Source of the DNA: Cocleimonas flava
GTDB lineage: Bacteria > Pseudomonadota > Gammaproteobacteria > Thiotrichales > Thiotrichaceae
Reading direction: 5' to 3'
DNA length: 64,000 bases
Assembly: GCF_004339015.1 (NCBI RefSeq)
Contig: NZ_SMFQ01000004.1
Location: 186,001-250,000 of the forward strand
In this document: piece by piece, positions 3,017-61,945 of the stretch
Position numbering within the stretch: the first letter of the stretch is position 1
Layout: the number at the start of each line of letters is the position of its first letter
Position numbers and translations under genes: made by a program
The notes under the pieces: model-generated
The model's input: the letters and a program-made list of their open reading frames with translations, nothing else
Database searches by the model: none
What the model was told of the DNA's origin: nothing

Positions 3017-3137
3017 TTGACTACGTTCTTCTTTTACAGAACGAAAATCGATTAAAAAATTAGTTTTATTAAACAGTATCCCTAAACCAGTACCCCAAAA
3101 CCAGTGCCCCTAAAACAATGTTCTATTAAATTTAATA

Positions 3138-3163
3138 CACCCCCCTACTTTGGAGCCTTTTTT
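3138..3163 (+). repeat. C-rich interspersed element, short form (copy 1)
   Basis: The copy reads C-run, TACTTTGGAGCC, then a T-tract. It lies between two genes on the plus strand, the glycosylase and metY. Confidence 0.85.
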
Positions 3164-3258
3164 ACGCTATTATTTAACCGAATTAAAAAACTACGTTGTT
3201 ACAATAATTATACATTCACATTCATTATTTAATTTTCTCAAAAATAAAGAGTACCGCT

Positions 3259-7235: not shown

Positions 7236-7898
7236 ATGAAAATAATCAATGACTTAAGTCCTGAAGAAATTCAGCAATGTTTAAATAAACAAATACCATC
7301 CAGTTATGATGTTCCTACTTCTCCCGGCAATAGCAACAACAGTGAAACGGGCCAATATCCTAATCAACTGAATAAAGCACAACGCAAAGCGGCAGTCTTG
7401 ATCCCTTTTCTAAGAATTGAAGAGAGCTGGCACATTCTGTTTATTCGGCGCTCAATTATCGAAAATGATATGCACAGCGGGCAAGTTGCCTTTGTCGGCG
7501 GCAAGCATGAAGAAAATGATCCGTCCATCATACATACCGCATTGCGCGAAACTCATGAGGAAATCGGGATCAATCCTAACGATGTTAATGTACTGGGAAA
7601 ATTGAACCCACATTACACTGTAAGTCGGTTTGAAGTGACACCCGTAATCGCCACTGTAGCCTGGCCCTACGACCTAACTTTACAAAAATCAGAAGTCAGT
7701 CATGCCTTTACATTGCCGCTTGATTGGCTGGCAGATGAGAATAATCATGAAATCCGTTATCGGGAAGTGCCGAATGTAAAAGAACCTATTCCAGTGTTGT
7801 ATTTCAAGGAATATGAAGGTGAATTACTATGGGGCGCGACCGCTCGAATGACAGATTCTTTAATTAAGACACTGAAAAACGAGCCTGTAGATTACTAA
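7236..7898 (+). CDS. nudL: NUDIX hydrolase, CoA pyrophosphatase type
   Basis: Hydrolyses the pyrophosphate of CoA-like nucleotides. The 220-residue protein contains the CoA-type motif upstream of the Nudix box (LFIRRSIIENDMHSGQVAFV). The box itself (GGKHEEND, then ALRETHEEIGI) has the one-residue-longer spacing seen in NudL proteins. The second half (PHYTVSRFEVTPVIATVAW) also matches the family. The start ATG has no clear ribosome-binding site, and an N-terminal extension of about 40 residues before the domain is variable. NudL is the best-fitting family; the exact substrate is not proven. Confidence 0.85.
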   Translation: MKIINDLSPEEIQQCLNKQIPSSYDVPTSPGNSNNSETGQYPNQLNKAQRKAAVLIPFLRIEESWHILFIRRSIIENDMHSGQVAFVGGKHEENDPSIIHTALRETHEEIGINPNDVNVLGKLNPHYTVSRFEVTPVIATVAWPYDLTLQKSEVSHAFTLPLDWLADENNHEIRYREVPNVKEPIPVLYFKEYEGELLWGATARMTDSLIKTLKNEPVDY

Positions 7899-7901
7899 AG
7901 G

Positions 7902-7928
7902 CACCCCCCACCTTTGAGGCGTTTTTTT
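7902..7928 (+). repeat. C-rich interspersed element, short form (copy 2)
   Basis: Lies in the 28-base gap between convergent genes. Its T-tract forms the TAA stop codon of the decarboxylase on the minus strand. Confidence 0.85.
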
Positions 7929-11641: not shown

Positions 11642-13417
11642 ATGCTTAATAAAAAAGAGTCACTCGGCTCGACTGAACCACTCTGGGTGCTCCTCGGCGC
11701 ACTCTCTGTGGTTTTTCATATCTGGCTTATTTTCAGTGGCTTAATCCCTAGTTTAGTTAGCCGCCCGTTGCACATGGCACTCGCACTTCCGTGGGTATTC
11801 ATTTATCTGGCGAAAACAAAAAGTGCCCAAAAGTGTGGGGGTGTATTTACTGTTCTGGGACTAGCGGCGTGTTTTTATATTGTTTTTAAACACGAATTAT
11901 TATCAGATCAATACGGTTCTTTAGAAGGACAATGGCAAATCTGGCTTGCCGGTTTTCTGATTATTTGTGTATTGGAGATGGCTCGACGCGCCATTGGCTG
12001 GCCATTACCAACAATAGCTGCACTCGCGCTTTTATATGGATTATTTGGTAGTCACTTGCCTGGTGAATTTGGACACCCGGGCTTACCCATAGAAAGTTTT
12101 CTCGGAACCATGACCGTTGCAGAAGGCGGATTATGGGGTAGCCTTACCGGCGTTTCAGTCAATATAGTCGCCATTTTTGTGATTATGGGGGCTGTTCTTA
12201 ATGCTGGTGAAGCGGGTCAAGGTTTTATGAATCTTGCAACCTCTGCGGCTGGCAGACTCAAAGGCGGAGCTGCCAAAGTCTCCGTACTATCCAGTGCTTT
12301 GTTTGGCTCTATCTCGGGTTCTGCCTCTGCCAATGTTGCATCAACTGGCGCGATTACCTTGCCGGCGATGGAAAAACTCAATTACCCTAAACGACTTGCT
12401 GGCGCTGTAGAAGCCGTGGCTTCTTCTGGTGGACAAATCATGCCACCACTCATGGGAGCTGGGGCTTTCGTCATGGTGGAGCTCACAGGAACTCCCTATA
12501 CTCAAATTATGGGAGCAGCCATCTTGCCTGCGGTCTTATATTTCTTAACCGTCTGGATTGGCATCAATGCCTACGCAGATCGCTATGATCTACAACCACT
12601 CGCAAAAGACCAATTACCCGAAAAGCGCACCGTTATCATTACGGCTAGTTTTTTTGCGGTGCCTTTTATTATTCTATTAGGGCTGATGTTTATCGGCGGC
12701 TATACCCCACAATTTGCAGCAGCAGGCGCAATTCTTTCTGGCTTTGTATTGTTATTTCTTGATGCCAACTTAAGTATCGATATAAAACGAACGACGCAAC
12801 GCTTAAAGAGCGTATGTCTGAATGCAGGCGAACAAATCGCCGTAATTGCATCGATTATTCTTTGTGCAGGATTAATTATCAGCGTGCTAGGACAGACTGG
12901 CCTTGGTATAAAAATTACTTCGTTAATTTTATCCGTAGGTGGCGAACAGATCTGGCCAGCGTTATTGCTCACCGCCCTAGCCTGTTTAATTCTAGGGATG
13001 GAAGTACCCACTACGGCTGCTTATGTGATTTGTATTTCAGTTGCAGGTCCTGCGCTACAAAAACTAGGATTAGAACCACTCATTGCGCACTTGTTTGTCT
13101 TTTGGTTCGCACTGTTATCTACCATCACCCCGCCAGTTTGCGGAGCTGTTTTCATTGCAGCCGGCATGATCGGCGAAAACTGGTTGAAGGTAGCGCTTAC
13201 CGCAATGGCTTTGGGCGTAGGGCTTTATATAATCCCATTAGGAATGATTGCCAACCCAGCGATAATTACGATCGCGACTGATCCACTTATGGCCTTATTA
13301 GTATTTGTAAAACTTGCCGTAGGATTGGCATTTGTTTCCTATGGGTTAATCGGCAAGCCAAAAATTCTCATAAAAGCAGGATTAATCGTTGCAGGTCTAT
13401 TCGCTGTTTTTATCTAG
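11642..13417 (+). CDS. TRAP transporter fused permease (DctQ-DctM type)
   Basis: Inner-membrane permease of 591 residues with many membrane helices. The DctM core is clear: SGSASANVASTGAITLPAM, ASSGGQIMPPLMGAGAFVM, GMEVPTTAAYVICISVAGPA and STITPPVCGAVFIAAGMIG are typical of the 4TM/12TM fused permeases that pair with TAXI receptors. It follows the receptor gene and forms one transporter with it. Residues 60-68 (KSAQKCGGV), in a loop after an early helix, are encoded by a reverse-oriented copy of the C-rich element, inserted in frame. The remainder looks intact. Confidence 0.93.
   Translation: MLNKKESLGSTEPLWVLLGALSVVFHIWLIFSGLIPSLVSRPLHMALALPWVFIYLAKTKSAQKCGGVFTVLGLAACFYIVFKHELLSDQYGSLEGQWQIWLAGFLIICVLEMARRAIGWPLPTIAALALLYGLFGSHLPGEFGHPGLPIESFLGTMTVAEGGLWGSLTGVSVNIVAIFVIMGAVLNAGEAGQGFMNLATSAAGRLKGGAAKVSVLSSALFGSISGSASANVASTGAITLPAMEKLNYPKRLAGAVEAVASSGGQIMPPLMGAGAFVMVELTGTPYTQIMGAAILPAVLYFLTVWIGINAYADRYDLQPLAKDQLPEKRTVIITASFFAVPFIILLGLMFIGGYTPQFAAAGAILSGFVLLFLDANLSIDIKRTTQRLKSVCLNAGEQIAVIASIILCAGLIISVLGQTGLGIKITSLILSVGGEQIWPALLLTALACLILGMEVPTTAAYVICISVAGPALQKLGLEPLIAHLFVFWFALLSTITPPVCGAVFIAAGMIGENWLKVALTAMALGVGLYIIPLGMIANPAIITIATDPLMALLVFVKLAVGLAFVSYGLIGKPKILIKAGLIVAGLFAVFI
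11818..11844 (-). repeat. C-rich interspersed element inside the TRAP permease gene (only reversed copy)
   Basis: The plus strand reads A-tract, GTGCCCAAAAGTGTGGGGGTGT, the reverse complement of the consensus. It is translated as KSAQKCGGV. In this copy TGT stands where intergenic copies have TAG or GTG. Confidence 0.8.
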
Positions 13418-13481
13418 TATTTATCTAGTATTTGTCTGGTTTCAAATAGCATAATTAGACTCATCGATAGAATCAGTAAGT

Positions 13482-13509
13482 CACCCCCCTACTTTGGGGG
13501 ATTTTTTTT
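13482..13509 (+). repeat. C-rich interspersed element, short form (copy 3)
   Basis: Lies between convergent genes, upstream of a bidirectional terminator. The variant carries TACTTTGGGGG and an eight-T tract. Confidence 0.85.
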
Positions 13510-14880: not shown

Positions 14881-14968
14881 AAGGCAAATAACAGTGATTG
14901 TCTTTGCAGACCTTATAGTTAAGAACTGTACCAGAGTTTTAAAATATATACTCTATTAGATCAATAGG

Positions 14969-14996
14969 CACCCCCCTACTTTTAGACCCTTTTTTT
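14969..14996 (+). repeat. C-rich interspersed element, short form (copy 4)
   Basis: Lies between divergently transcribed genes, so it cannot be a terminator for either. The loop variant is TACTTTTAGACCC. Confidence 0.8.
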
Positions 14997-15895: not shown

Positions 15896-16086
15896 GGATG
15901 ATACTCTTCAATAAATCTGTAATGAAGCAGCATAATGACAAAGGATCAGGCGTGAAGATAGTCCGAGACGCAATTAAACTGAGTTAATTAGCGTAACTTT
16001 AAAGTAACATTGAAACAATATTAGAGTATATTGGAGAAACGACTTTAGTAACAATCCAGATAATATTATCTGTAGATTTAATTAGG

Positions 16087-16112
16087 CACCCCCCTACTTA
16101 TAGAGGGTTTTT
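16087..16112 (+). repeat. C-rich interspersed element, short form (copy 5)
   Basis: The copy has TACTTATAGAGGG and a short T-tract. It lies between two minus-strand genes, 49 bases beyond the hemerythrin gene stop. Confidence 0.75.
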
Positions 16113-16160
16113 ACAAGGTTTTTATGCAGGCTGAAAACGGGTCTATACACTCTCGATGCA

Positions 16161-20126: not shown

Positions 20127-20162
20127 ACTGCGATAAATCTAAGACGATAATGATAATAATGG

Positions 20163-20189
20163 CACCCCCCACCTTTGGGGCACTTTTTT
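20163..20189 (+). repeat. C-rich interspersed element, short form (copy 6)
   Basis: Consensus-like copy with CCACCTTTGGGGCAC and a T-tract. It lies between two minus-strand genes. Confidence 0.9.
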
Positions 20190-20464: not shown

Positions 20465-21889
20465 TCAAGGCGCTTGGTAAGCGGGTAATTCAACCACATA
20501 AGCATCTACCGATTGACCATCGTCAGCACCACTCCAGTCAGAGCCAAACAACACACGAGTTCCCGATGGGCTAATCACCGCATGCGGCTCACCCCAGTAA
20601 TCAAACTCATTTTCATCAGCACGATGATGTCCAATGCGATACACCTGCACATTATCCTTATCTTGCACGTTTGCAATGATCAATTCCTGATCTAACAATG
20701 CTTGGCCGTCTTCCTGATATCCAACCATCGATGCAGCGATCCAGCCAGGATTACGATGCGCCAATGCCGAAATATGCGTACCCGTTTTGGCATAATCATA
20801 ACCTTGCCTCTGACTAATCACATCAAAACATTCAGCCGTTGTGAGGTCATGCGCAATGATATTCCCATCACAACCACCCTGAGGACCTGGGTTAAATTCG
20901 ACGGAGAATAAGGCATCATTACCATTTCCTAAACGGCCCAGACTTTCATGTTCTGGATTATTCTTATTCAATTGGCGTAACGCGACACCATCTGCACCAT
21001 AAACCGTTGTGTGATGAAAATAGCGCTTTCCACTGGGTGTTGGCATCGGTGCCAAATAACGCACATCAGACATGCTAAACGTGGTTAAGGTATCCGTAGA
21101 AATCCGATAAGAAAATGCAACATCATTGGCACAACGGAAACCAAACACGTCAGAATCGTAAGACATCATCTGTACATCGTTACCCAGGTTCACACTGTAC
21201 TGATCGCAATTCGACTTTGCTGCCAGATTCACCAATACCTTCTTGTTGCGCGTGCTTACGGAATAGCGGATTAAATCCGCGGTGATTTTATCGACATAGT
21301 AAAAGTTATCGGGGTTTACATAATCCCAGAAAATCTGTTCGATATCATCGGGGATAACATCATCCAGATTGCGAATAAAGACATAAGTGTGGCCATCCAG
21401 TAATTGATGAACGCCATTCGCCTGATCGTATAAAAGCATAAACGATTCATCCGCATTCCATGCCTGAATCGTGCTGTACATCGGTTTAATGACATTTCCC
21501 GTACCCGCATTACTGATACGACGAATGCTGGTGCCAAATGACGGGTCGGTGATCGCTTCGAGATAAGCAGGTTTGGCGATATCCTGCATCGGGTGAAACG
21601 CCATATCATTCGCGGTCAACCCTTGTGCTGGGTTTGCAGAACTCGGGATTGGATTAATTTCTGTTTCTGTTTCTGTTTCTGTTTCTGTTTCTGTTTCTGT
21701 TTCTGTTTCTGTTTCTGTTTCTGTTTCTGTTTCTGTTTCTGTTTCTGTTTCTACAGGAGTATCGACTTCGTCTTCTGTGTTGCCAGTTATTTCGTCAGAA
21801 TTGACACTACTGGAATTTGATCCACCACCACAGGCTATCAGTAATAAAAACAGTGGTAGAACTAACCATTTATGATTTGAATGATTCAT
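20465..21889 (-). CDS. Lipoprotein with (Thr-Glu)n linker and probable beta-propeller domain
   Basis: The 474-residue protein has a lipoprotein signal ending LLLIACGGGS (lipobox Cys). A low-complexity acidic linker follows, with about 16 consecutive Thr-Glu pairs encoded by a hexanucleotide repeat. The 370-residue domain then carries recurring segments such as SFGTSIRRISN, ESFMLLYDQANGVHQLLDG, PSGKRYFHHTTVYG and ISPSGTRVLFGSDWSG. These look like blades of a WD40/TolB-type or oligogalacturonate-lyase-like propeller. It is probably an outer-membrane-anchored surface protein; any enzymatic role is unproven. Monocistronic. Confidence 0.75.
   Translation of the reverse strand: MNHSNHKWLVLPLFLLLIACGGGSNSSSVNSDEITGNTEDEVDTPVETETETETETETETETETETETETETETETEINPIPSSANPAQGLTANDMAFHPMQDIAKPAYLEAITDPSFGTSIRRISNAGTGNVIKPMYSTIQAWNADESFMLLYDQANGVHQLLDGHTYVFIRNLDDVIPDDIEQIFWDYVNPDNFYYVDKITADLIRYSVSTRNKKVLVNLAAKSNCDQYSVNLGNDVQMMSYDSDVFGFRCANDVAFSYRISTDTLTTFSMSDVRYLAPMPTPSGKRYFHHTTVYGADGVALRQLNKNNPEHESLGRLGNGNDALFSVEFNPGPQGGCDGNIIAHDLTTAECFDVISQRQGYDYAKTGTHISALAHRNPGWIAASMVGYQEDGQALLDQELIIANVQDKDNVQVYRIGHHRADENEFDYWGEPHAVISPSGTRVLFGSDWSGADDGQSVDAYVVELPAYQAP
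21658..21752 (-). repeat. Hexanucleotide tandem repeat (TTTCTG on plus) in lipoprotein gene
   Basis: About 16 perfect or near-perfect TTTCTG units encoding Thr-Glu pairs. Slippage would change linker length without a frameshift. Confidence 0.95.
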
Positions 21890-21987
21890 TGCGAAGCCCG
21901 TGCAGTAAATTGATAAGGTTAATGACTAGATAATGTTAAGGCACTAAAGTTCAAACATACACCAGGCTTTGCTAATCTAAGCAAAGC

Positions 21988-22014
21988 CACCCCCCTACTT
22001 ACAGGGCTTTTTTT
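21988..22014 (+). repeat. C-rich interspersed element, short form (copy 7)
   Basis: Variant TACTTACAGGGC plus T-tract. It lies between two minus-strand genes, beyond the fpr stop. Confidence 0.8.
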
Positions 22015-24724: not shown

Positions 24725-24737
24725 ACACTTCAATAGG

Positions 24738-24765
24738 CACCCCCCACCTTTGGGGCACTTTTTTT
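24738..24765 (+). repeat. C-rich interspersed element, short form (copy 8)
   Basis: Best-consensus copy: six C's, ACCTTTGGGGCAC and seven T's. It lies between convergent genes. Confidence 0.9.
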
Positions 24766-31365: not shown

Positions 31366-31461
31366 ACTCAATTGTCTATTCAACTAACCGAGTTTTTTAT
31401 TATAAATAATCATTGTTTATTCGAATCAGTATTTATTGGCGTCTAATAAATATATCTAAGC

Positions 31462-31489
31462 CACCCCCCTACTTATAGGCAGTTTTTTT
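31462..31489 (+). repeat. C-rich interspersed element, short form (copy 9)
   Basis: Variant TACTTATAGGCAG plus seven T's. It lies between convergent genes, 6 bases from the DUF1287 stop. Confidence 0.85.
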
Positions 31490-32313: not shown

Positions 32314-32325
32314 GATTACGTTTGC

Positions 32326-32374
32326 CACCCCCCTACTTTGAATGATATTTACGTTTTATAAGGATACTTTTTTT
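32326..32374 (+). repeat. C-rich interspersed element, reduced medium form (copy 10)
   Basis: TACTTTG is followed by AATGATATTTACGTTTTATAAGGA, then ACTTTTTTT: a shortened version of the medium insert. It lies between divergent starts. Confidence 0.75.
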
Positions 32375-34975: not shown

Positions 34976-35115
34976 CACCCCCCCCACCTTTGAATGATAT
35001 TAGGTTTTTGTTTTTTGAAAACGTAAATAGAGCCGAGCTTGCGAGACAAAAGCTTTAGCTGACCCTTCAGGGTGAGGCGTAGCCGAATAATTTATGCTTT
35101 GCGGGGGCACTTTTT
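34976..35115 (+). repeat. C-rich interspersed element, extended medium form (copy 11)
   Basis: About 140 bp. The C-rich start is followed by AATGATATTAGG..., a TTTTTG/CAAAA-type hairpin, a middle module with GACCCTTCAGGGTGAGGC and TAGCCGAATAATTTATGC, and the GGGGGCACTTTTTC end. It combines parts of the medium and long forms. Confidence 0.85.
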
Positions 35116-37453: not shown

Positions 37454-37762
37454 AATGGATCAAGTCTAGATCATAAATGGAAACATTGATAAGTCACTTG
37501 AGTGTGAGACTCAGAAATAACGAAATAAAGGGTTCAAATAGTTTATTAAGCCACCCCCCGGCTTTGGGGGCACTTTTTTACAATGATTACTTTTACTTCG
37601 CTTTCACATAGCATTTACATAACTTTATTTAGTTTCTATCTGGAAATATTAACAAAGCATCCATCCCCCCAGAAATTTCGGATATGATTTACTCGTCAAG
37701 AAGATAGTATTAAGTTATCTATGATAAAAACCTATAAAAAAGCACGAGGGATTTAATAAACC
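37454..37762. other. Divergent intergenic region with one C-rich element
   Basis: It holds the C-rich element at 37552-37579 and otherwise AT-rich sequence, including a CATCCCCCCAGAAATTTCGG stretch near 37661 that resembles a decayed C-run. It must include promoters for the genes on both sides. Confidence 0.5.
37552..37579 (+). repeat. C-rich interspersed element, short form (copy 12)
   Basis: Variant CCGGCTTTGGGGGCAC plus T-tract, located between divergent starts. Like copy 13 it has CGGCTT in place of [T/C]AC[C/T]TT. Confidence 0.85.
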
Positions 37763-38251: not shown

Positions 38252-38283
38252 TAAAAACTGATAAAAACGAAAAGAATAATTGC

Positions 38284-38310
38284 CACCCCCCGGCTTAGAG
38301 GCACTTTTTT
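38284..38310 (+). repeat. C-rich interspersed element, short form (copy 13)
   Basis: The CCGGCTTAGAGGCAC variant. Its T-tract contributes to the TAA stop of DUF1287 paralog B on the minus strand. Confidence 0.85.
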
Positions 38311-39487: not shown

Positions 39488-39578
39488 TACCCTTACAGTA
39501 ATAAATCATCCACACGGAATTGATAAGCGACATAAGAATAGAAGGTAGTAATTGTGCTTTGAATTGCTTTTATTAAGC

Positions 39579-39604
39579 CACCCCCTACCTTACGGGCACT
39601 TTTT
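39579..39604 (+). repeat. C-rich interspersed element, short form (copy 14)
   Basis: CCCCCTACCTTACGGGCAC plus T-tract, followed after 20 bases by a REP-like arm. It is equivalent in position to copy 19 in the duplicated block. Confidence 0.85.
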
Positions 39605-39624
39605 CTGAATGAATAATAAAATAA

Positions 39625-42210: not shown

Positions 42211-42229
42211 TATAAAAAACGATCTTTGA

Positions 42230-42255
42230 CACCCCCCTAGTTTGAGGAGGTTTTT
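42230..42255 (+). repeat. C-rich interspersed element, short form (copy 16)
   Basis: CACCCCCCTAGTTTGAGGAGG plus T-tract, between the pseudouridine synthase gene and a convergent hairpin. Confidence 0.8.
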
Positions 42256-42288
42256 ATATTTGATTAAGTAAAAATCGCGGATACAAAA

Positions 42289-42943: not shown

Positions 42944-43248
42944 ATCTATACCGTTCCTTTTTATTCAGATTAGTATATTAGTTTTATATGTTACTTTGCA
43001 TACCATTAGTCGTATGGCGAATAAGAAAGCGAATTATGGATAAATAACAGAAAATTACTTATGGGCTCTGTTTTTAAGTCATCCCCCTACTTTTTGGCAC
43101 TTTTTATACTCTGACTCTATTACCATTCAAAACTATAAGTTTTAGCTTCATGCATACCCTTAATCAAATATCTTAGATTAAGTTTAGCCAATATATTATT
43201 ATTAAATAATAAGCACAAAAACTAAATAATAAAAATAATAGAAAAGCT
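42944..43248. other. Divergent intergenic region with one C-rich element
   Basis: The C-rich element is at 43080-43105. The rest is very AT-rich leader of the DUF4116 gene. No other feature was found. Confidence 0.45.
43080..43105 (+). repeat. C-rich interspersed element, short form (copy 17)
   Basis: CATCCCCCTACTTTTTGGCAC plus T-tract, between divergent starts. Confidence 0.8.
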
Positions 43249-45117: not shown

Positions 45118-45155
45118 GGTTTAGGAAAACAATTTAGAGGATAAAAAAATAAAGC

Positions 45156-45183
45156 CACCCCCCTACTTTTGGGCTATTTTTTT
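45156..45183 (+). repeat. C-rich interspersed element, short form (copy 18)
   Basis: GCCACCCCCCTACTTTTGGGCTATTTTTT. On the minus strand it encodes the end of DUF1287 paralog C (KIAQK) and its TAG stop. Confidence 0.85.
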
Positions 45184-46008
45184 ATCGCCATACTTATAAT
45201 GCCCAATAATCTTAAAATCAAACAACATATCATTCATTTGTGGGCCTGCTCCGATATTGTGAACAATCAAGGGATTACTCGTTAACTCAGATACGTAATT
45301 AGAGACGATTCCTATATGCAACAGTACTTTGCTCCTGCTCTTACCTTTTACTGCGTTTAAATCCCAAACGACAATATCCCCAGCAATATAATCCATCGGA
45401 TCATCCTTAATCTTTAACGATGCGCCAGCGCGATTGAAGTAAGTCATCAGATTAGGCACACGCCGATGATCGATATTAGTATCAGGTCTAGACAGCTTCC
45501 ATTTGTTGGGATAGCTGCGGAAATTACGTTTCATATCCTCATGAACACGTTGTTGCAGATCAAGACCCAAACCTCGAAACGATCGAATAACCACATCCGT
45601 ACAGACGCCGATATTTTCAGGAACATCGCCCATCGGATAAGCAATTTTGCGATAACTACCGTCGTATCTAACATCAGACTGGAGACGTAATTCAGTTTGA
45701 ATTGCCAAGTGATCCTGAAACGTTAATTCCTTCTCAGGTACTTCAACGATAGTTGGCTCAATAAGCTCAACATCGGTTTGACGCTGATCGGCATCTTGAC
45801 TGGGGTTTGACTGGGGATTAATGTTTTTCGAGTGATCTTTTAATACATCGTCATTAAAAGTATCGCCGCTAAAAGTATCGTCTTTGAATTTATGATCTTT
45901 GATGAATGAAAGCTGCCCAGTAGCCAACAACGCGATCACTCCAACAAACCCAACCACTAAGACGAGTAATAGAATTGTTTTGCGATAATGGTTTTGTGTG
46001 CTTTTCAT
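45163..46008 (-). CDS. DUF1287 family protein, paralog C
   Basis: The 281-residue protein is close to paralog A: same MKSTQ start, N-terminal membrane helix (ILLLVLVVGFVGVIALL), acidic linker (DTFSGDTFNDDVLKD) and DUF1287 domain (KIAYPMGDVPENIGVCTDVV, PDTNIDHRRVPNLM, LHIGIVSNYVS). A longer start at 46119 would translate a C-rich element (KSAPKVGGV); the ATG at 46008 is preferred because paralog A starts there. The last residues KKIAQK and the TAG stop come from the C-rich element at 45156-45183, so the native C-terminus has been replaced or trimmed. Confidence 0.87.
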   Translation of the reverse strand: MKSTQNHYRKTILLLVLVVGFVGVIALLATGQLSFIKDHKFKDDTFSGDTFNDDVLKDHSKNINPQSNPSQDADQRQTDVELIEPTIVEVPEKELTFQDHLAIQTELRLQSDVRYDGSYRKIAYPMGDVPENIGVCTDVVIRSFRGLGLDLQQRVHEDMKRNFRSYPNKWKLSRPDTNIDHRRVPNLMTYFNRAGASLKIKDDPMDYIAGDIVVWDLNAVKGKSRSKVLLHIGIVSNYVSELTSNPLIVHNIGAGPQMNDMLFDFKIIGHYKYGDKKIAQK

Positions 46009-46022
46009 AGTTACGTTTGTCA

Positions 46023-46050
46023 CACCCCCCACCTTTGGGGCACTTTTTTT
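46023..46050 (+). repeat. C-rich interspersed element, short form (copy 19)
   Basis: Consensus copy (CCCCCCACCTTTGGGGCAC plus seven T's). It is in the readable variant (no TAG), upstream of DUF1287 paralog C and followed by a full REP-like unit. Confidence 0.9.
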
Positions 46051-46064
46051 ATGAATCATTATTA

Positions 46065-46149
46065 GGTAGGTTGGATAAGCTTTATACCATCCTGTACGAT
46101 CTTGATTGATCTCACACAAATGTTGGATGGCTTACCTTATCCGACTTAC
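46065..46149. repeat. REP-like palindrome, full length
   Basis: Arms GTAGGTTGGATAAGC...CATCCTGTA and TGTTGGATGGCTTACCTTATCCGACTTAC, about 85 bases. Confidence 0.85.
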
Positions 46150-47755: not shown

Positions 47756-47896
47756 ATCAATCAGAATCTTCCTTGGTTTCATGAGTAACCGTTTGTCGAG
47801 GATATATCAATAACTTACAGGCTCGTCTACCGGTTGAATATTGCTTATGAGCGTTTGGTTGTCCTATTTATTTCGGAGTAGAAATAATCAGAAAGT

Positions 47897-47921
47897 CACC
47901 CCCTACTTATGGGCACTTTTT
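47897..47921 (+). repeat. C-rich interspersed element, short form (copy 22)
   Basis: CACCCCCTACTTATGGGCAC plus T-tract, followed after 20 bases by the full REP-like unit. Confidence 0.85.
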
Positions 47922-47941
47922 CTCGATGAACAATAATATCG

Positions 47942-48026: not shown

Positions 48027-48048
48027 GCGTTATATGTACTTTAAAAGT

Positions 48049-48073
48049 CACCCCCCTACTTTTGGGCGGTTTT
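48049..48073 (+). repeat. C-rich interspersed element, short form (copy 23)
   Basis: CACCCCCCTACTTTTGGGCGGTTTT. Its TAG (minus strand) is the stop of the small membrane gene at 48056. Confidence 0.85.
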
Positions 48074-48469
48074 ATTCTCAGTACTTTCAATTTCTCGTTT
48101 TAACTTTTGTAACTGCAAATCAAAGTACTCATCTTGCTTAGGTTGTATTTTTGTATGCCATTGCCTAAAGCCATAAAACATCAGCAAAATTGCTATAGTT
48201 GTTGTCCCTGAAAGTCCATAGATATAGGTTTGTTTGTTTTTTACTTGAGCCTTAATACGTGCTTCAATAAATTTGCCAATACCAGTCTTTTCTTTTACTT
48301 CCTCTGTACCTGGAATACTCTCATATTCTTTAACTAGATAATGTAGTTTTTCGTTGGTAGAAGTACCAACCCATATAGTTCCTAAGATGCTGGTGATAAG
48401 TAGTAATAAACCAAACATGGCATAGAACTTGTAAATGTTGTCAGTAGGAAGAGGTATTTTAGATTCCAT
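48056..48469 (-). CDS. Small two-helix membrane protein, third gene of the DGQHR/HEPN-like operon
   Basis: The 137-residue protein has two membrane helices (FYAMFGLLLLITSILGTIWV and YIYGLSGTTTIAILLMFYGF) joined by a 50-residue segment. A charged C-terminal helix (DLQLQKLKREIESTENK) should face the cytosol. It starts at the ATG at 48469, 5 bases after AGGA and 8 bases after the previous stop; an ATG at 48490 overlapping the previous gene is also possible. The final KTAQK and TAG stop come from a C-rich element, so the true end may be altered. It may be the membrane effector of the cassette. Confidence 0.75.
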   Translation of the reverse strand: MESKIPLPTDNIYKFYAMFGLLLLITSILGTIWVGTSTNEKLHYLVKEYESIPGTEEVKEKTGIGKFIEARIKAQVKNKQTYIYGLSGTTTIAILLMFYGFRQWHTKIQPKQDEYFDLQLQKLKREIESTENKTAQK

Positions 48470-51025: not shown

Positions 51026-51129
51026 AAATTAAGTTTTCATATTTATCGATTATGGTTGGTAATATTTTGTTTGTTTCATCATATATTTTTTCTTATTCTA
51101 TTAATAGAATATATTTTGTATAAAAAGGA

Positions 51130-51153
51130 CGCCCCTACTTTGAGGCACTTTTT
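51130..51153 (+). repeat. C-rich interspersed element, shortened (copy 24)
   Basis: CGCCCCTACTTTGAGGCAC plus T-tract. The C-run is reduced to four. It is followed after 31 bases by the 83-bp hairpin repeat. Confidence 0.75.
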
Positions 51154-51184
51154 GATTACGAAAGAAATATCAATAGTAGTTAAT

Positions 51185-51405: not shown

Positions 51406-52293
51406 GTGAAATATTACAAACCAGATTGGTATTCTATCGGAGGCAATGTAGATGCAAATGCTTCATTCAAAGAACAGAATACGTTTTGGTTGAATGAGTG
51501 CGATAAATGGTTGGCGCAGTTAGCGTCAGAACTGACGTCGAAACGAGCGCAGGAGCTAGCGCCAAGAACCAGCGAATCATATTCCACCGTAGAGTCACAG
51601 AACTTCATCATCTTAAGTGCTGAAGATGAGAAATACACGAATCATTTTCTTAAGTTCCTGGAATTCTCAAGAACGAAAATTTTAGATAATCTTAAAGATG
51701 TCGCATCAGATGACGGTTTTGCTAAACATGTTCTGATCATCACGGCTGATCAAGAGACGTATTATGATTATCTCTTCATGTTCTACCCCGAGGATTCAAA
51801 AGTCGGCTTAAGTGGCGGGGTGTATTTAAATGATGGATACGGCCATTTTGTTTTCCCATCACAAGAAATCTCTTTCACAGAATCAGTCGCTGCCCACGAA
51901 TTAACTCATGCGTGTTTGGCTCATCTACCTATACCGCTCTGGTTAAATGAGGGGTTGGCGGTTTCGATGGAAGATGTTGTTTTGAATAGAAATCATTTTC
52001 AGATGAATACAGCCATTATTTTCAAACATCAAAAATACTGGAACGAGGATAATATTCAAGCCTTCTGGGATGGCTCCAGCTTTGGGAGTACAGGTGTTGG
52101 ACAAGAACTCAGCTATCACTTGGGCCAGTTATTAGTGAGAAATATTTCTGAAGACTATGAACTGTTCGCACGTTTTTGCAATGACGCACATTTTAGTGAT
52201 GGCGGTGAAAAAGCCTTTCTAGAATATTTCAATATTTCATTGGGTGATCTCATTGAGGGTTTACTAGGCGATGGAGACTGGAGCCCCAAATAA
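51406..52293 (+). CDS. HExxH metallopeptidase-like protein
   Basis: The 295-residue protein has a gluzincin-type zinc motif AAHELTHACLAHL (two His of HExxH) followed by WLNEGLA, whose Glu is the expected third ligand, as in peptidase MA-like families. No signal peptide is seen, so it may be cytosolic or exported by another route. The start is GTG at 51406 without a strong ribosome-binding site. It is isolated between two repeat clusters and might be a cargo gene; no inhibitor or partner is recognised. Confidence 0.78.
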   Translation: MKYYKPDWYSIGGNVDANASFKEQNTFWLNECDKWLAQLASELTSKRAQELAPRTSESYSTVESQNFIILSAEDEKYTNHFLKFLEFSRTKILDNLKDVASDDGFAKHVLIITADQETYYDYLFMFYPEDSKVGLSGGVYLNDGYGHFVFPSQEISFTESVAAHELTHACLAHLPIPLWLNEGLAVSMEDVVLNRNHFQMNTAIIFKHQKYWNEDNIQAFWDGSSFGSTGVGQELSYHLGQLLVRNISEDYELFARFCNDAHFSDGGEKAFLEYFNISLGDLIEGLLGDGDWSPK

Positions 52294-52369
52294 ACATATC
52301 AGGCTGATACTGATAGCAGGTTGTTATAAGAACGGTTTAAATGAAATTAGGAAGGTGTTTTTAAAATGA

Positions 52370-52449
52370 CACCCCCCTACTTATGAATGATATTACGTTT
52401 TTGTGTTTTAAAAACGTAAATAGAATTTATGCTTTGCGAGGCACTTTTT
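52370..52449 (+). repeat. C-rich interspersed element, medium form (copy 25)
   Basis: CACCCCCCTACTTATG, AATGATATTACG, ACGTTTTT...AAAAACGT hairpin, TAGAATTTATGCTTTGCGA, GGCACTTTTT: 80 bp, near-identical to copy 21. Confidence 0.9.
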
Positions 52450-54574: not shown

Positions 54575-54656
54575 AATAAGTATGAAAAGCCAGAACCAGA
54601 TTAAATATCAAAAGTGCTAACAAAGAAGTCAGTTCCCCTAACCTAGGTTTTAATAA

Positions 54657-54682
54657 CACCCCCCACCTTTGGGGCACTTTTT
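54657..54682 (+). repeat. C-rich interspersed element, short form (copy 26)
   Basis: CACCCCCCACCTTTGGGGCAC plus T-tract, between convergent genes, followed by a decayed REP-like arm at 54698-54728. Confidence 0.88.
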
Positions 54683-54697
54683 CAACGAACTATAATA

Positions 54698-56116: not shown

Positions 56117-58048
56117 TTATGCGTTGGATAATGATTGCTCTATCCGAGTCGCCTTAACCACCTCAGCCTTAACCCCAGTTACCAACACACTCTCACTCGC
56201 GACAATACTCACCTGCTCTTTTGCACGGGTGATTCCGGTATAGATTAATTGTCTTGTTAGCAATGGCATTTCTTCGTGTGGCAATATCAAAACGACTTGA
56301 TTGAATTCTGAGCCCTGGCTTTTATGGATGGTCATCGCCCATGTGGTTTCGTGTGCGGGTAGTCGCACTGGAGAGAAACTTTTGTATGCATGAGAGCCAT
56401 CAGCGGCAGAAAGCCCATCGTCAGCAGAAGGAAAATACACTTTTACTTCGCCATCTCTAATCAGGGTGATTCCAGTATCGCCATTAAACAGCCCTTTGCC
56501 ATAACTGTTTTGAGTAATCATAATGGGACGACCGTGATACCAGCTTTGGTTATTGTTCGAGAACTTTTTGCGGAAATGTATCTGGTTTTGTTTTGCCAGT
56601 GCGGTTTCGATGCGACTGCTCATATTCACGCTGCCGTTCGGTCCGCGGCGTAAAGCACATAACACTCGGTATTGAGTGAATGCCTGAAAGATTTCATCGT
56701 AGCTAGCGTCAGGATTATTGATAACGTCGATATACGTTCGCCACGGTTTGATTAGCTCGGCATCTCTTAATGTATCTGGTGCGATGAGTTTACAATTCTC
56801 ACTGTTGCTATCTTTGAGTAAGCTGAGTAATTTTCTGCTATCACCTTGATTGGCGGCTATCGCGCTTTGTCCGATGTCGCTGTCTTTGGAGAAGCGCCAG
56901 TTTTTCTTTAGCGTCACCAAGTGCTCGCTTTTATCCTCTTCTAATCCGCTACACATATCGGCAAATACCGAGCCTGTTTCTACGGATGAGAGTTGATCTT
57001 TATCGCCGATGAGAATCAGTTTCGCATGAGCGGGAACGGCTTCGACAAGTTTAGACATAAGCGCGATATCGATCATCGAGGCTTCATCGACCAAGACTAC
57101 ATCGGCATTCAATGAGTTGTTGCGATTGTGTTTGAAGTTGACGCTGCCGTGCTGGTAGCCGAGTAGTTTGTGAATGGTACTGGCTTCGCTGGGCATGAGT
57201 GCCGCTGCATCTTCTGTCAAACCCAGACCTGCTTGCGCATCGCGAATCGAATCGAGCATACGAATAGCGGCTTTACCGGTTGGCGCGGCTAATAAAACCT
57301 TGAAATTATTTGTTAAGCCACCCCCCACCTTTGGGGCAGTTTTTTCATCTGATGAAGATAAATGCTGTTCAATCAATAATGCCAGTAAACGCGTTATCGT
57401 GGTTGTTTTACCCGTGCCCGGGCCACCTGAGACGATTAGGAATTGATGTTTTAATGCCAGCTCTACAGCGCGGCGTTGCCAATTGATTTCTTTTGACTCT
57501 TTTTCGTTTGCACTATCTTTATCGTCAGAGAACAATTCATCCAGACGTTGTTGTGCCCAACTATCCTGATTTTCCGACTTGGTAATGGAATCAATATCTT
57601 CATCAACAGTCATACGCGCGCGTATTTGTTTCGCCAGTTGGTTTTGGTATTGCCAGTAACGTCGAAGGTACAAATAACCCTGATCGATTATCAGTGGTTT
57701 GTAATCCCCTGCTTCGCCGCCGACATTGGTTTGCAATAATACGGCTTGATCTTCTTCCGTTACCGGAATCGCAATTTGACCTTCGCGAGTGTGTTTGCTG
57801 ATCTCTAAAGTGCAGCGTTTGATGACTTTGTTTTGTGCTATTTGTAAGTCGCTTTCTTTATCTTTCGAGCTGTTTAGCTCTTGCATGAGTTCTGCAAGTT
57901 GCTTGTCTAGTGCTTCGTATTCTTCTGCTTCTGGTGGAGCTTGTTGCTGCAAATTTGTCGATGGTGTTTCTACTGTTTCTGGCAGTACGTCACTTGCGTC
58001 CTTTTTCGAATCAGCAGAATCACCGAACATGGAGAGTTGCTCTGACAT
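56117..58048 (-). CDS. recD: Exodeoxyribonuclease V subunit alpha (RecD)
   Basis: SF1B helicase subunit of RecBCD. The 643-residue protein has Walker A (VSGGPGTGKTTTITRL), motif Ia (LLAAPTGKAAIRML), motif II (VVLVDEASMIDIAL), a GDKDQLSSVETGSVFADM region and the C-terminal MTIHKSQGSEFNQVV and YTGITRAKEQVSIV. Its ATG overlaps the recB stop by one base. Between Walker A and motif Ia (about residues 234-242) is the peptide KTAPKVGGG, encoded by a C-rich element (57319-57345) in frame. E. coli RecD has a much shorter loop there. The helicase motifs on both sides are intact. Confidence 0.96.
   Translation of the reverse strand: MSEQLSMFGDSADSKKDASDVLPETVETPSTNLQQQAPPEAEEYEALDKQLAELMQELNSSKDKESDLQIAQNKVIKRCTLEISKHTREGQIAIPVTEEDQAVLLQTNVGGEAGDYKPLIIDQGYLYLRRYWQYQNQLAKQIRARMTVDEDIDSITKSENQDSWAQQRLDELFSDDKDSANEKESKEINWQRRAVELALKHQFLIVSGGPGTGKTTTITRLLALLIEQHLSSSDEKTAPKVGGGLTNNFKVLLAAPTGKAAIRMLDSIRDAQAGLGLTEDAAALMPSEASTIHKLLGYQHGSVNFKHNRNNSLNADVVLVDEASMIDIALMSKLVEAVPAHAKLILIGDKDQLSSVETGSVFADMCSGLEEDKSEHLVTLKKNWRFSKDSDIGQSAIAANQGDSRKLLSLLKDSNSENCKLIAPDTLRDAELIKPWRTYIDVINNPDASYDEIFQAFTQYRVLCALRRGPNGSVNMSSRIETALAKQNQIHFRKKFSNNNQSWYHGRPIMITQNSYGKGLFNGDTGITLIRDGEVKVYFPSADDGLSAADGSHAYKSFSPVRLPAHETTWAMTIHKSQGSEFNQVVLILPHEEMPLLTRQLIYTGITRAKEQVSIVASESVLVTGVKAEVVKATRIEQSLSNA
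57319..57345 (+). repeat. C-rich interspersed element inside recD (copy 27)
   Basis: CCACCCCCCACCTTTGGGGCAGTTTTTT. On the recD strand it reads KTAPKVGGG with no stop, in the same frame as the copies in recB and the TRAP permease. Confidence 0.92.
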
Positions 58049-61000
58049 TAGCTTGCCTCCTGTGTTTCGGGCTGTACGTTGTGGCTAGGTAGACGCATAA
58101 ACAAACCATCCAATGCATTAATCAAATCGAGACTCGGTTTATGGTAAAACACACCCCCCCACTTTGAGGCACTTTTTTGTGAGTCCTGATCTAATTGTTC
58201 GGTTTTTGTCATGCCACGAATAAACAGGTAATACGCGCCACCGAAATGCGTTTCCCATTGATAGCTGGGTAAACGCTGTTCTAAATAGCGGTGTAACGCC
58301 ACGCAGTAGATGAGGTATTGCAGATAGTAATGCGCCTCAGCCATTGGCGTGAAGAGTTTTTCAGGCGCATAGTTTTCAAGCGTATTGGATTTGTAATCCG
58401 CCAGATAGTATTTACCATTGTATTCGAAAATCAGGTCGATAAAGCCTTTTAGGTAGCCTTCGACTTCATCGAAATACAAGGTGTCTACAGCTTCGCGGAT
58501 TTGACGCCACTTCGGTGTTGTGTCGGATTCGTCATCTACCGGTAAATGCTGAAATAAGGTTTGTTTTAGCTTTTCGATATCGAGTCGTTCGAGTGGCAGA
58601 TAGAATTCCATCTCGTCCAAACGCTGTGCTTTACTCAGCTTATTCAGTGACAAGATTTCGGTTTCTGCTGACATTTGATTCTGATGCAGTTCAGCCTCAA
58701 TGCTTTCTCCAATCAAACGCATCGCGGCTTGTTTGTGCTTTTCTTCGAAGCTGTATTTTTCGAGGATTCTATCGAAGGTTTCTGTTTGCTCTTCCAGTGG
58801 CTGGGTGAAGTCAATATTCTCGTAAATTTCGTGCAAGGCAGTACCCGCAGTTGCGCCTTTGGGGAAGGCTTCTACGATATTTTCAGCGCCATCATCCGCC
58901 TGCGCTATTTGTTTATTATTGATTTCGACAAAACTGTCGTAATCGGGCGTTTCGGCGTGTGCGCCAGCGGTCAAGCCACTAAAACTGGTGATTTGCGCTT
59001 GCGATTTAATCTCGGCGGTAAATTCACGGGCTGTCAGGGTTTGATTTGTTTCAATCGGCTGATACACCAAATCCTGTGGATACTCGGGCAAATCATCGAG
59101 TGAGATATTGCCGTTACCAACGGTTTCGAGTTTCAGTAAGTTTTGCTCGTACGCCAGTTTGAATTCGGCTTTCTGTTCTTTTTCTGCTTTGCCAGAACCG
59201 GACGGATTGCTTTTACCATTGGTGAGTAACCAACCCAGTGCAGAACGATCGGGACTGCCACTGATGGTTTCTGGGAACACCACAATATTGCACTGATATT
59301 TAGCACGGGTTAACGCCACATAAAGCAGTCGCGTATCTTCTGCCAGTTCTTCCTGTTTTTTCAGTTCTTTATGCTCATCACTTTCTGATGAACCAATTTC
59401 TAGATAACTGCGTTCGTCTTTGTGAAAGGTGAATATTTTATCGCTATTCGCTTTCGGGCTTAAACCGACATAGGGGCAATAGACGATGGGGTATTCCAGA
59501 CCTTTTGATTTGTGAATAGTGACGATTTTGACGAGGTTTTCATCGCTTTCTAGACGCAATTCGCTTTCTGTGGCGCTGCTGTTTTCTTGGCGCTGTTTCA
59601 GCCACAACAGGACTTCTTCGATACTTAATGATTTCTTACGAACTGCTTGATGGATGATTTCTGCGAGGTGCAGAGTATTGGTTATCCGGCGTTCGCCATC
59701 CATAAAGTTGAGCAGATGTTGATGCGTGTTTTGTGATTTCATCAAAGCGCGCATCATCGGTAGAAAGCCATGATGCTTCCATTGGTATTGCCAGTTCTGG
59801 AATAACAATAGAATCTCTTCCCAGGCATTGCTGTCTGACTCTAAATCTAACAAGTCCTGTGCTTGATACCCCATAAGTTCGGTGACCAATGCACGACGTA
59901 CATTATCTTCGCGTTGCGGATCGGCAATCGCTGTGAGTAATCGATGAATTTCAACCGCTTCGTGGGTTTCGAAAATACTTTGCTTACTGCTTTGCACACT
60001 GGCGATTTTACGTTGATTAAGCGCGGCTTTGATCATATCGCCTTGCGTGTGCGAGCGGATTAAAATCGCGATATCTCCACCACCAATAGGCTTGCCTTCA
60101 ATGGTTGCCTTACCCTGATTGGATGCATTGAGTAATTCTGCAATATCACCCGCTACTGCATCGGCGATTTCTTTGCGGATTGCATCGGCAGATTGAGGTT
60201 CTGGTTTGCCATCAGGTTTTTCGCCAGGCGTTTGATTAAAGCGCCACAGTTGCAATGGAGTTCGCGCCTCTGGTGCTTGAATATCATTGAGGTCTTTTCC
60301 CGACTTGACCTGCACGTATTCGATGCCTTCATCCTGAAAGGGATTATCAGACTGAGCGTATAAGGTATTAAACGCAGAGATTAATTTGTCATGCGAACGC
60401 CAGTTAGTTTTAAGTGTGTGATGATTGCTTTCATCCGTATCGGCTTTGGCTTTTAGATAGGTATGAATATCACCACCACGGAAACTATAAATCGCCTGCT
60501 TCGGATCACCAACTAAGAAAACAGCGTTTTCTTGGGTGTGCGGATCATTATAAATAGTACTAAAAATATCGTATTGAATCGGGTCCGTATCCTGAAATTC
60601 ATCAATCAGTGCAGCTTGATATTTCTTGCGTAAATCTATCGCCAGTTGCGGGTTAGTTTTTAACGCCTGTTGAAGTTGTAATAGCAGGTCATCGAAGGAT
60701 AAAACACCGAGGCGTTTTTTCTCTTTCGGGAGTTCTTCTTGTAAATATCTCAGTAGCTCGATGCGGGTGTTATTGAGAAAATCATCTGAGCCTTTATTAA
60801 GTTGTTCCCAAAGTTCTGAAAAGGATTCCCATGCTGAGAAAAAGCTGTGTTCTGGCGGGGTGCATTTAGCTTTAGTCCCTGTCTCTATATATGAATGTTT
60901 AAATTTCTGCGCGCTTTCAATGAAATCTGCATTGATATCAAACAAGGCTTTAATTTGATTCATTTCGTTGCATAACTTTGCAACCGTGGGTTTCCTGAAT

Positions 61001-61791
61001 TTATTACCGTTTAAGTTTTTATCTTCTAATAATATTTGGGTGATTTCAGCACCGTCTGTTTGCCATTGTTTAACAATATTCTGTAAGCCTTTTTCCAGAA
61101 TGTCCCATTTGTCCGTTTTTTCACTTTCATTCGAACTAGCATCATTTGAGCAATTTACATTGTTTTCTGGACCGCATAATTCAAGATACGGTTTACCCAC
61201 AGCATTTCTAATATCTTTGAGTAATGAGTCGGGCGTGACACTTTTCTGGTGTAATTTGAAGATTAATGATTTCGGTGCGTTGTCGGTATACCTTCGCCAA
61301 AAATCATCCGTGAGTTTTTGCATTAACTCACTGTCATCATCCATCAGTTCGCTTTCAAAAGGTAGCCCTGCTTCGAAGGCATTTTCACTCAAGGTGCGTT
61401 GGCAGAAACCGTGGATGGTAAATATCGCGGCTTCATCAAGACTGAGTTTGGCGCGATTTAAACGGCGAATCGCTTCTTCGTAATCAGATTCACGTTCGAT
61501 GAGTTCCAATACTTCGCCGTATTCTTTTTTAAGTGCATCTGTCAGGCCGTGTTCGTTGATTGCTTTAAATGCGGCTAATGCGCCGACTAATCTTTGACGC
61601 ACATCATCTCGCAGTTCTTTGGTAGCCGCTTCGGTGAACGTTACGACTAAAATCTGGTCAACTGTGAGATTCTTTTCGAGTATCAAACGAAGGAACAGCA
61701 AGGTTACAGTCCACGATTTACCCGTGCCCGCGCTGGCTTCTATTAAATTTATTGAGGATAAGGGAATTTCGTAGGGATTTAGGGTTCTCAT
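58048..61791 (-). CDS. recB: Exodeoxyribonuclease V subunit beta (RecB)
   Basis: SF1A helicase-nuclease subunit of RecBCD (1247 residues from ATG 61791; a TTG at 61800 is less likely). Visible parts are Walker A (LIEASAGTGKSWTVTLLFL), motif II (ALIDEFQDTDPIQ), VGDPKQAIYSFRGGDIHTYL, KIVTIHKSKGLEYPIVY, RLLYVALTRAKYQ, and the C-terminal nuclease motif GFIDLIFEYNGKYYLADYKS. Near the C-terminus (about residue 1208) the peptide KSASKWGGV between LFIRGMTK and FYHKPSLDL is encoded by a C-rich element, in frame. recC is not adjacent. Confidence 0.96.
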   Translation of the reverse strand: MRTLNPYEIPLSSINLIEASAGTGKSWTVTLLFLRLILEKNLTVDQILVVTFTEAATKELRDDVRQRLVGALAAFKAINEHGLTDALKKEYGEVLELIERESDYEEAIRRLNRAKLSLDEAAIFTIHGFCQRTLSENAFEAGLPFESELMDDDSELMQKLTDDFWRRYTDNAPKSLIFKLHQKSVTPDSLLKDIRNAVGKPYLELCGPENNVNCSNDASSNESEKTDKWDILEKGLQNIVKQWQTDGAEITQILLEDKNLNGNKFRKPTVAKLCNEMNQIKALFDINADFIESAQKFKHSYIETGTKAKCTPPEHSFFSAWESFSELWEQLNKGSDDFLNNTRIELLRYLQEELPKEKKRLGVLSFDDLLLQLQQALKTNPQLAIDLRKKYQAALIDEFQDTDPIQYDIFSTIYNDPHTQENAVFLVGDPKQAIYSFRGGDIHTYLKAKADTDESNHHTLKTNWRSHDKLISAFNTLYAQSDNPFQDEGIEYVQVKSGKDLNDIQAPEARTPLQLWRFNQTPGEKPDGKPEPQSADAIRKEIADAVAGDIAELLNASNQGKATIEGKPIGGGDIAILIRSHTQGDMIKAALNQRKIASVQSSKQSIFETHEAVEIHRLLTAIADPQREDNVRRALVTELMGYQAQDLLDLESDSNAWEEILLLFQNWQYQWKHHGFLPMMRALMKSQNTHQHLLNFMDGERRITNTLHLAEIIHQAVRKKSLSIEEVLLWLKQRQENSSATESELRLESDENLVKIVTIHKSKGLEYPIVYCPYVGLSPKANSDKIFTFHKDERSYLEIGSSESDEHKELKKQEELAEDTRLLYVALTRAKYQCNIVVFPETISGSPDRSALGWLLTNGKSNPSGSGKAEKEQKAEFKLAYEQNLLKLETVGNGNISLDDLPEYPQDLVYQPIETNQTLTAREFTAEIKSQAQITSFSGLTAGAHAETPDYDSFVEINNKQIAQADDGAENIVEAFPKGATAGTALHEIYENIDFTQPLEEQTETFDRILEKYSFEEKHKQAAMRLIGESIEAELHQNQMSAETEILSLNKLSKAQRLDEMEFYLPLERLDIEKLKQTLFQHLPVDDESDTTPKWRQIREAVDTLYFDEVEGYLKGFIDLIFEYNGKYYLADYKSNTLENYAPEKLFTPMAEAHYYLQYLIYCVALHRYLEQRLPSYQWETHFGGAYYLFIRGMTKTEQLDQDSQKSASKWGGVFYHKPSLDLINALDGLFMRLPSHNVQPETQEAS
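58152..58178 (+). repeat. C-rich interspersed element inside recB (copy 28)
   Basis: CACCCCCCCACTTTGAGGCACTTTTTT. On the recB strand it reads KSASKWGGV, where TGG stands in the position that is TAG in stop-bearing copies. Confidence 0.92.
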
Positions 61792-61945
61792 GAAAACCAA
61801 TATTACCTTGTTTTTATGTCAGATATCAGTAATCTTGAACTTAAGGAAGCTCAAAATACCCTTAGGCTTATTCAAGAATAACTTACATGTCGAAGTGGAT
61901 GGCATAAGAACTAAAATACTTAGCTAATTAAGAATAAAACAAATT

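Follow-up and report, generated by a model that had tools for sequence, protein, structure and literature searches.

The window analysed here, that is, the whole stretch of 64,000 nt, belongs to contig NZ_SMFQ01000004.1 of Cocleimonas flava (positions 186,001 to 250,000 of the forward strand; assembly GCF_004339015.1). It contains recD (56117..58048) and recB (58048..61800), both on the minus strand, and a gene for a TRAP transporter permease on the plus strand (11642..13417). The products of recD (643 aa) and recB (1250 aa) have E. coli RecD and RecB, respectively, as their best PDB matches, and helicase domains were identified as well. The permease (591 aa) bears the name given to it in an earlier sequence-only reading, and homologues of it were found. 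That reading had noticed three similar peptides, KTAPKVGGG in RecD, KSASKWGGV in RecB and KSAQKCGGV in the permease, and had ascribed them to a repeated element that entered the genes in frame. Translation confirmed that all three peptides are present in open frames. The underlying DNA lies at 57314..57345 (minus strand) in recD, at 58147..58178 (minus strand) in recB and at 11817..11848 (plus strand) in the permease gene. The same three copies occur in the nearest relative, an uncultured Cocleimonas sp. whose RecD is 90% identical, and the corresponding RecD and RecB loops of other species carry dialects of their own. The placement of the peptides in variable loops and their membership in a genome-wide repeat were both borne out, and alignment with E. 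coli RecD showed that the core motifs flanking the RecD loop are intact. The best explanation for the peptides is a DNA word, found throughout the genome and restricted to one clade, of which they are the coding copies. As argued below, this word resembles a species tag for the recognition of own DNA more than it does a jumping element.

The form and abundance of the word were determined in the window's own genome, referred to as G000 (4.49 Mb in 10 contigs; family Thiotrichaceae). A weight matrix was trained on 464 kb of G000, and copies were counted over 944 kb; simulated sequence of the same length as the training sample gave nothing above the matrix score used (>15). According to the matrix, the word consists of a run of five or six A, about 7 nt often including GCCY, the core WAAGTAGGGGGGTG, nC, and then a T-rich part (TTT). 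The 944 kb hold 287 copies, which projects to about 1,370 for the whole genome, and the window holds 26, with 24 of them on the minus strand. A 22-base pattern allowing up to three mismatches gave 12 matches in the window and none in 100 shuffles, and over the whole genome 476 matches (105 + 371) as opposed to none for the reversed pattern. In the G000 sample, the core 10-mer was observed 199 times against 0.42 expected, and the exact 13-base core outnumbers its one-mismatch forms by 170 to 65 (simulated, 0 and 0). The word is the most over-represented one in G000 and also in G007 (the nearest relative), G008, G003, G006, G011, G009 and G010, while a tandem repeat outranks it in G002. Of 246 intergenic copies, 232 have four or more consecutive A whose last base precedes the G of the AAG core by 9–11 nt, mostly 10 nt; the ungapped matrix partly fixes this spacing. 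By eye, single copies have no obvious palindromic core.

The distribution of the word was then compared among 12 genomes of the genus (the Cocleimonas group) and 83 genomes outside it. Nine of the 12 have 314–741 generic core matches each. The other three, G001, G004 and G005, are poor in the motif, with 17, 10 and 1 matches, respectively, and each of the 83 outside genomes has at most 17, about the level of the reversed control. The form differs between species. The G010 form, GAAAAANAGGGGGGGTGG, occurs 207 times in G010 and at most five times in each of the 11 others. The form shared by G009 and G002, AAAAAAGGGGGGGATGGG, with one mismatch allowed, occurs 477 times in G009, 263 times in G002, 10 times in G010 and not at all in the other nine. 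The common form of G008 and G003 ends in GTGTCTTTT and that of G006 in GTGTACTTT; the forms of G003, G006 and G011 rest on four to six copies each. Aside from these, G005, which has no motif, shows a different over-represented word, TCTACCGGAG, at loci L157, L281 and L282.

The dialects also replace each other at fixed positions within genes. In seven species (G000, G007, G008, G009, G010, G002 and G011), the RecD loop carries the form of its own genome. The RecB loop does so clearly in G000, G007, G009, G010 and G002, and in degenerate form in G011 and G008. Neither loop has the motif in G001 and G005, whose genomes have few or no motifs. The comparison included no loop from G003 and G004 and no RecB from G006. 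Such differing dialects at the same loop are better explained by co-evolution of a recognised word than by transposition. A RecD tree of 12 rows, in which G003 and G004 are not included, does not settle the order of G001, G005 and G006, so that it is compatible with one gain of the motif as well as with several losses. The RecD and RecB of L034 and L035, from a metagenome-assembled genome (MAG) titled Hyphomicrobiales, resemble those of G010; probably the title is wrong or the bin is mixed. A second, partial copy of the recD 3′ end was found in G007 (L056, G007:C67) and in G008 (L057, L059, G008:C162).

We then inspected whether copies stay in place between G000 and G007. A 184-kb stretch of G000 contains 59 copies, of which 26 could not be anchored in G007. 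Of the 33 anchored on both sides, 32 are matched in G007 by a copy on the same strand, comprising 25 of the 26 intergenic and all seven coding ones. As a control, 75 motif-free intergenic regions of G000 were taken, 19 of which could not be anchored; eight of the remaining 56 hold the motif in G007. Identity across the 25 intergenic pairs is mostly 88–100% in the core columns, 60–76% in the spacer and about 50% in the flanks, with core conservation partly built in because the copies were located by the motif itself. In neither direction did the anchored sites include a recognisable clean empty one, long intervals not being resolved. Among the cases present in a single species, one copy found in G007 only was a candidate insertion by its length difference of 39 bp. 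It has a decayed counterpart in G000 that aligns under the core, interrupted by a gap of one base; a further gap, of 17 bases, begins in the T-run at the motif end.

Comparison with homologous proteins bears on how the word enters genes. The alignments are gapless across the motif in LpxD, an OmpR-type response regulator, GlyS, MetG (with a one-residue gap a few residues upstream of the motif) and a D-lactate dehydrogenase-like protein; the word replaces native residues in these five proteins. The permease, for which an alignment had been proposed, does not show extra residues either: at about 34% identity it has no gap at the motif relative to the G011 homologue L233, and it is five residues shorter at or beside the motif than L232 and L235. 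A UmuC-like polymerase has a gap overlapping the motif start, a FadJ-like protein aligns poorly there, and the copy in a formate-dehydrogenase-beta-like subunit forms a C-terminal tail beyond the alignment. RecD and RecB behave differently. The RecD loop is longer than those of E. coli, G001 and G005, and the RecB loop is longer than those of G001 and G005; the RecB alignment to E. coli stops short of the motif. Hence the in-frame insertion proposed by the sequence-only reading is partly supported, by the extra length of the RecD and RecB loops relative to the motif-poor relatives, and is not borne out by the gapless copies in the other proteins or by the permease. Its wider idea, an element that as a rule invades genes by insertion and multiplies in the manner of the palindromic elements of Rickettsia, was not supported, six of the 11 compared coding copies showing no insertion. 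Insertion as a general origin was rejected on these grounds and kept open for RecD and RecB, whose loops may have lengthened on one occasion and retained the word thereafter.

True in-frame insertions do occur in the same two loops, and they involve other dispersed repeats. They were found in G008 (L032), in G011 (L159) and on the MAG contig L035. The inserted stretches, GSETTLERSDDDPKGE-like and DIIEL.VSK-like (DIIEL.VSK.ET), recur between genes and species and are apparently other dispersed palindromes. The idea of repeats entering the RecD and RecB loops in frame thus looks right for the relatives, with different elements. In addition, the two halves of the word form the ends of an about 85-bp, hairpin-bearing dispersed repeat in the window (52365-52449), and dozens of similar matches of about 30–95 bp occur in G007 and G008. 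The left half, AAAAAGTGCC, also occurs without its G-run partner, next to unrelated sequence, on the window's minus strand (minus-strand position 28885, about 35106-35115), in L143 near 4685 and in L045 near 3442. Judging by these arrangements, a true dispersed repeat seems to carry part of the word along as well.

Concerning translation, strong copies (matrix score at least 30) were used for frames and codon cores. The three peptides had been described as lying in the same frame, which is true of them and not general among the 29 strong coding copies of the G000 sample. Specifically, 22 copies lie on the strand of the gene, with 10, 9 and 3 in frames 0, 1 and 2, and seven are antisense. The core triplet of the 29 is GTG in 18, GTA in five, GGT in four and GTT in two, while the strong intergenic copies have GTA in 178 of 225. 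As GTA gives TAG in one frame and is mostly avoided in genes, the coding copies look selected for translation, which would be an indirect sign that they are translated. Weaker matches cover WTPPHFWAL of a CyoE-like, UbiA-family protein and GGGVVGD of 3-dehydroquinate synthase; we take these residues to be native and conserved, and the matches may be due to chance. The 42 coding-called copies include ones in the genome-maintenance genes for RecB, RecD, a UmuC/DinB-type polymerase and Mfd (weak, score 23), a suggestive set, counted among these copies, that may reflect a bias towards such genes. Runs of six to nine G inside recB and recD, for example at window 58152-58165 and at the G010 and G009 loci, could slip and thereby make the two genes phase variable, which we offer as an idea.

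The copies are sited mainly between genes. The 287 copies divide into 245 intergenic and 42 coding ones, although 85.5% of the DNA is open reading frame (ORF). The ORFs came from a simple longest-ORF caller, used instead of an earlier codon-score gene caller that gave 141 genes only; this leaves the coding counts approximate, and certain short or doubtful ORFs among them may be spurious. Segment L066, which is mostly N, was excluded from the 287-copy and siting counts and is still inside those for close pairs, base skew, coding frames, core triplets, exact cores, A-run spacing and tandem arrays. A copy is present in 64 of 104 convergent, 103 of 324 tandem and 31 of 121 divergent intergenic regions. 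Close pairs are inverted in 26 of 28 cases, 19 with the A-tracts inward, and their spacing is often about 30–40 bp. In G009, 13 of 32 neighbouring copies are on the same strand among the matches listed. Low motif density was also considered as a mark of foreign DNA, and this was rejected, as the lowest unmasked segment, L263, holds a pair of neighbouring ORFs, each about 1,400 aa long, that we take from size alone to be rpoB and rpoC.

The strong consensus, the dialects replacing each other at fixed positions, the origin without insertion in several genes, the siting at gene ends and the inverted pairs together give the profile of an uptake sequence, and we consider that the word probably works like one. 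We propose that the competence pilus has a receptor for DNA at the cell surface, which would prefer DNA bearing the species' own word. DNA of kin would then be taken up and recombined, so that matching copies would be favoured over mismatched ones. New copies would arise by point mutation and be kept in tolerant places such as gene ends and protein loops. When the preference of the receptor shifts, the copies would drift to a new dialect, those in recD and recB included. Abundance, consensus, conservation of position in two species, dialects, inverted pairs and the insertion-free origin of several coding copies are direct observations; what we infer is that a receptor exists, that it prefers the word in uptake and that a drive results. 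We do not claim membership in the class of uptake sequences, since uptake itself is a predicted property and since the strand bias described below differs from the known attribute of the class. A broader proposal seems to us evenly balanced, namely that the Cocleimonas group evolved a third uptake-sequence system independently, built on a G-run core and phased A-tracts and divided into at least four dialects in one genus, in which recB and recD would keep the word in frame across dialect changes and follow the taste of the receptor.

Several known systems resemble the word in part. The palindromic elements of Rickettsia, which are much longer and truly inserted, likewise give in-frame peptides in tolerated loops, here those of RecD and RecB, and differ in the point raised above, the coding copies without insertion. 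Small dispersed repeats of cyanobacteria are mobile; their units are dispersed, very short and about as long as the word, and they differ in that the anchored sites here gave no recognisable clean empty site. The published comparisons that follow refer to the cited passages of each paper. In these, uptake sequences are described for Neisseriaceae and Pasteurellaceae only, and none for Cocleimonas or Thiotrichales appeared among the papers listed from the open-licence PubMed Central (PMC) literature. The uptake signal sequences (USS) of Pasteurellaceae have a core with spaced flanking AT-rich tracts and two dialect groups in one family, have more exact than singly mismatched copies, form close inverted pairs, prefer non-coding DNA and arise by substitution rather than insertion (PMC1626085). 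The Cocleimonas word is alike in its core and AT tracts, dialects, consensus, inverted pairs, non-coding preference and several insertion-free copies. It is unlike them in having a G-run instead of AAGTGCGGT as core, A-tracts mainly on the 5′ side, a strand bias in some species and an uptake role that is predicted. The DNA uptake sequences (DUS) of Neisseriaceae have 10 bp without flanking motifs (PMC1626085); their dialects follow species groups, one frame contains a stop codon, and dyad pairs occur (PMC3630211). The word shares the dialects, the stop codon in one frame and the dyad pairs, and differs in its length of about 30 bp with spaced A-tracts and in that a ComP-like receptor is putative here. 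A drive on uptake sequences by uptake and recombination has been described (PMC1939737). Repetitive extragenic palindromic (REP) sequences and REPINs, which are mobilised by RAYT (Y1) transposases, are short, numerous, mostly extragenic and arranged in inverted pairs (PMC3116915, where the cyanobacterial repeats are also named), all of which applies to the word; it differs from them in that G000 has no Y1 match and several coding copies are without insertion.

A number of findings weigh against an uptake sequence and have to be set beside the other readings. USS and DUS are reported without orientation bias in the cited passages of PMC1626085, whereas intergenic copies prefer the G-rich strand by 174:71 in G000 and by 36:8 in G007. 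The coding share of 42 of 287 is below the 65% given there for the USS of H. influenzae. Competence genes do not lend support, because the ComEC family is present in 11 of 12 and the GspH/FimT-type pilin family in 12 of 12 genus genomes, the motif-poor ones included. G006 has the motif in its genome and none in its RecD loop. The strand preference also fits a polar chromosome signal, such as an FtsK-orienting polar sequence (KOPS) or Chi, or a nucleoid-protein site, read along the direction of replication. With the G-rich strand as stand-in for the presumable leading strand, the preference recurs in G008 (15:2) and in small samples from G006 (4:2) and G002 (3:0), and the one-sidedness of the window copies agrees with it. 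However, consistent polarity was not found, the ratios being 18:15 in G010, 5:3 in G009 and 1:5 in the small G003 sample. From intergenic base skew by itself, odds between 1.45 (for the whole motif) and 2.28 (for the core) are expected, as compared with 2.46 observed in G000, so much of the bias in G000, perhaps not all, is composition. The length of the word, the inverted arrangement of close pairs and the siting of copies outside genes, preferably where gene ends converge, also speak against such a signal. A polar signal is thus an unlikely account of the word as a whole, and a polar function in some species is possible.

A very small mobile element, similar to the cyanobacterial repeats, to REPINs or to the Rickettsia elements and tolerated as a peptide after in-frame insertion, would account for the strong consensus, the intergenic siting and the inverted pairs, often about 30–40 bp apart. 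The loose left halves and the hairpin-bearing repeat embedding both halves also fit it; they are not explained by point mutation alone, which counts against the uptake mechanism. So do the longer loops of RecD and RecB, which are as insertion would give, and, in the reverse comparison, five of the 39 anchored G007 copies (20 of 59 not anchorable) that are absent from G000, one of them weak; the other 34 are shared. The gap in the UmuC-like polymerase points in the same direction as the longer loops, and so do the true in-frame insertions that other repeats have made there in G008 and G011. Y1 (IS200/RAYT) transposases have matches in the motif-bearing G007, G009, G010 and G002, and none in the five motif-bearing genomes G000, G003, G006, G008 and G011; mobilisation by IS200/RAYT was rejected on the latter, the matches in the four others notwithstanding. 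Given also the five gapless proteins, the permease without extra residues, the decayed counterpart in place of an empty site and the differing dialects at the same loop, we regard a mobile element as improbable. An intrinsic transcription terminator or 3′-end element, C-rich and then with a T-run on one strand, would fit the siting at gene ends, above all in convergent regions, and the inverted pairs could form stems; uptake sequences are known within terminators as well, according to the cited passages of PMC13020248. A directional terminator was nonetheless rejected, because in tandem gene arrays the T-run strand equals the gene strand in 61 copies and is opposite in 56. Some copies also lie inside genes, and terminators do not need a shared 13-base core, so this reading in general appears unlikely. 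Chance resemblance of the three peptides is refuted by the shuffles and the reversed pattern, together with the presence of each species' own form in both genes, and we give it practically no weight. An uptake sequence therefore stays our preferred reading. If it is true, a third, unrelated lineage with several dialects in one genus would offer independent tests of how such words arise, of joint change in receptor and genome, and of why recombination genes carry words. It would also account for unusual peptides, in RecD and RecB as well as elsewhere, that could be mistaken for insertions.

The remaining copies in the window were all located by the weight matrix and lie on the minus strand unless stated otherwise. 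Intergenic copies are at 3133..3164, 13477..13508, 20158..20189, 21983..22014, 24733..24764, 31457..31488, 37547..37578, 42225..42256, 43075..43106, 45151..45182 and 48044..48075. The intergenic copy at 7897..7928 overlaps the stop codon of a minus-strand ORF, and that at 38279..38310 lies at the end of such an ORF. Intergenic copies at 16082..16113, 39574..39605 and 14964..14995 are also found in G007, the last with a changed spacer. At 32321..32352, the left part of an intergenic copy is off consensus and G007 has the usual short form. The intergenic copy at 47891..47922 is the sole anchored G000 copy without a match in G007, and an intergenic copy at 51123..51154 is slightly degenerate. For the intergenic copy at 54652..54683, the G007 contig matching the left flank has only the left half of the word and then diverges. 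The copy at 46018..46049 falls in the first part of ORF 45163-46119; it probably lies upstream of the true start (MKSTQNH...), a choice of start that would make it likely non-coding. A weak coding match on the plus strand (51796..51827, score 19.9), in ORF 51406-52293, has a lower-scoring counterpart in G007 and may have arisen by chance. The copy at 52365..52396 is the right end of the longer hairpin-bearing repeat embedding both motif halves, which extends to about 52449.

The window contains further repeats. A second dispersed, REP-like repeat, GTAGGTTGGATAAGCATGGCGCCACCCGAC with variants, has at least eight copies, at 35137, 39626, 40717, 41289, 46066, 47942, 54699 and 56119. Tandem TTTCTG units occupy 21634-21776 inside ORF 20465-21889. 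One repeated block occurs near 31.7k, 38.5k and 45.4k with a spacing of about 6.8 kb, its copies being 77–83% identical over 300 nt, and a second block is found at 39.65k and 46.14k, 6.5 kb apart and 91% identical.

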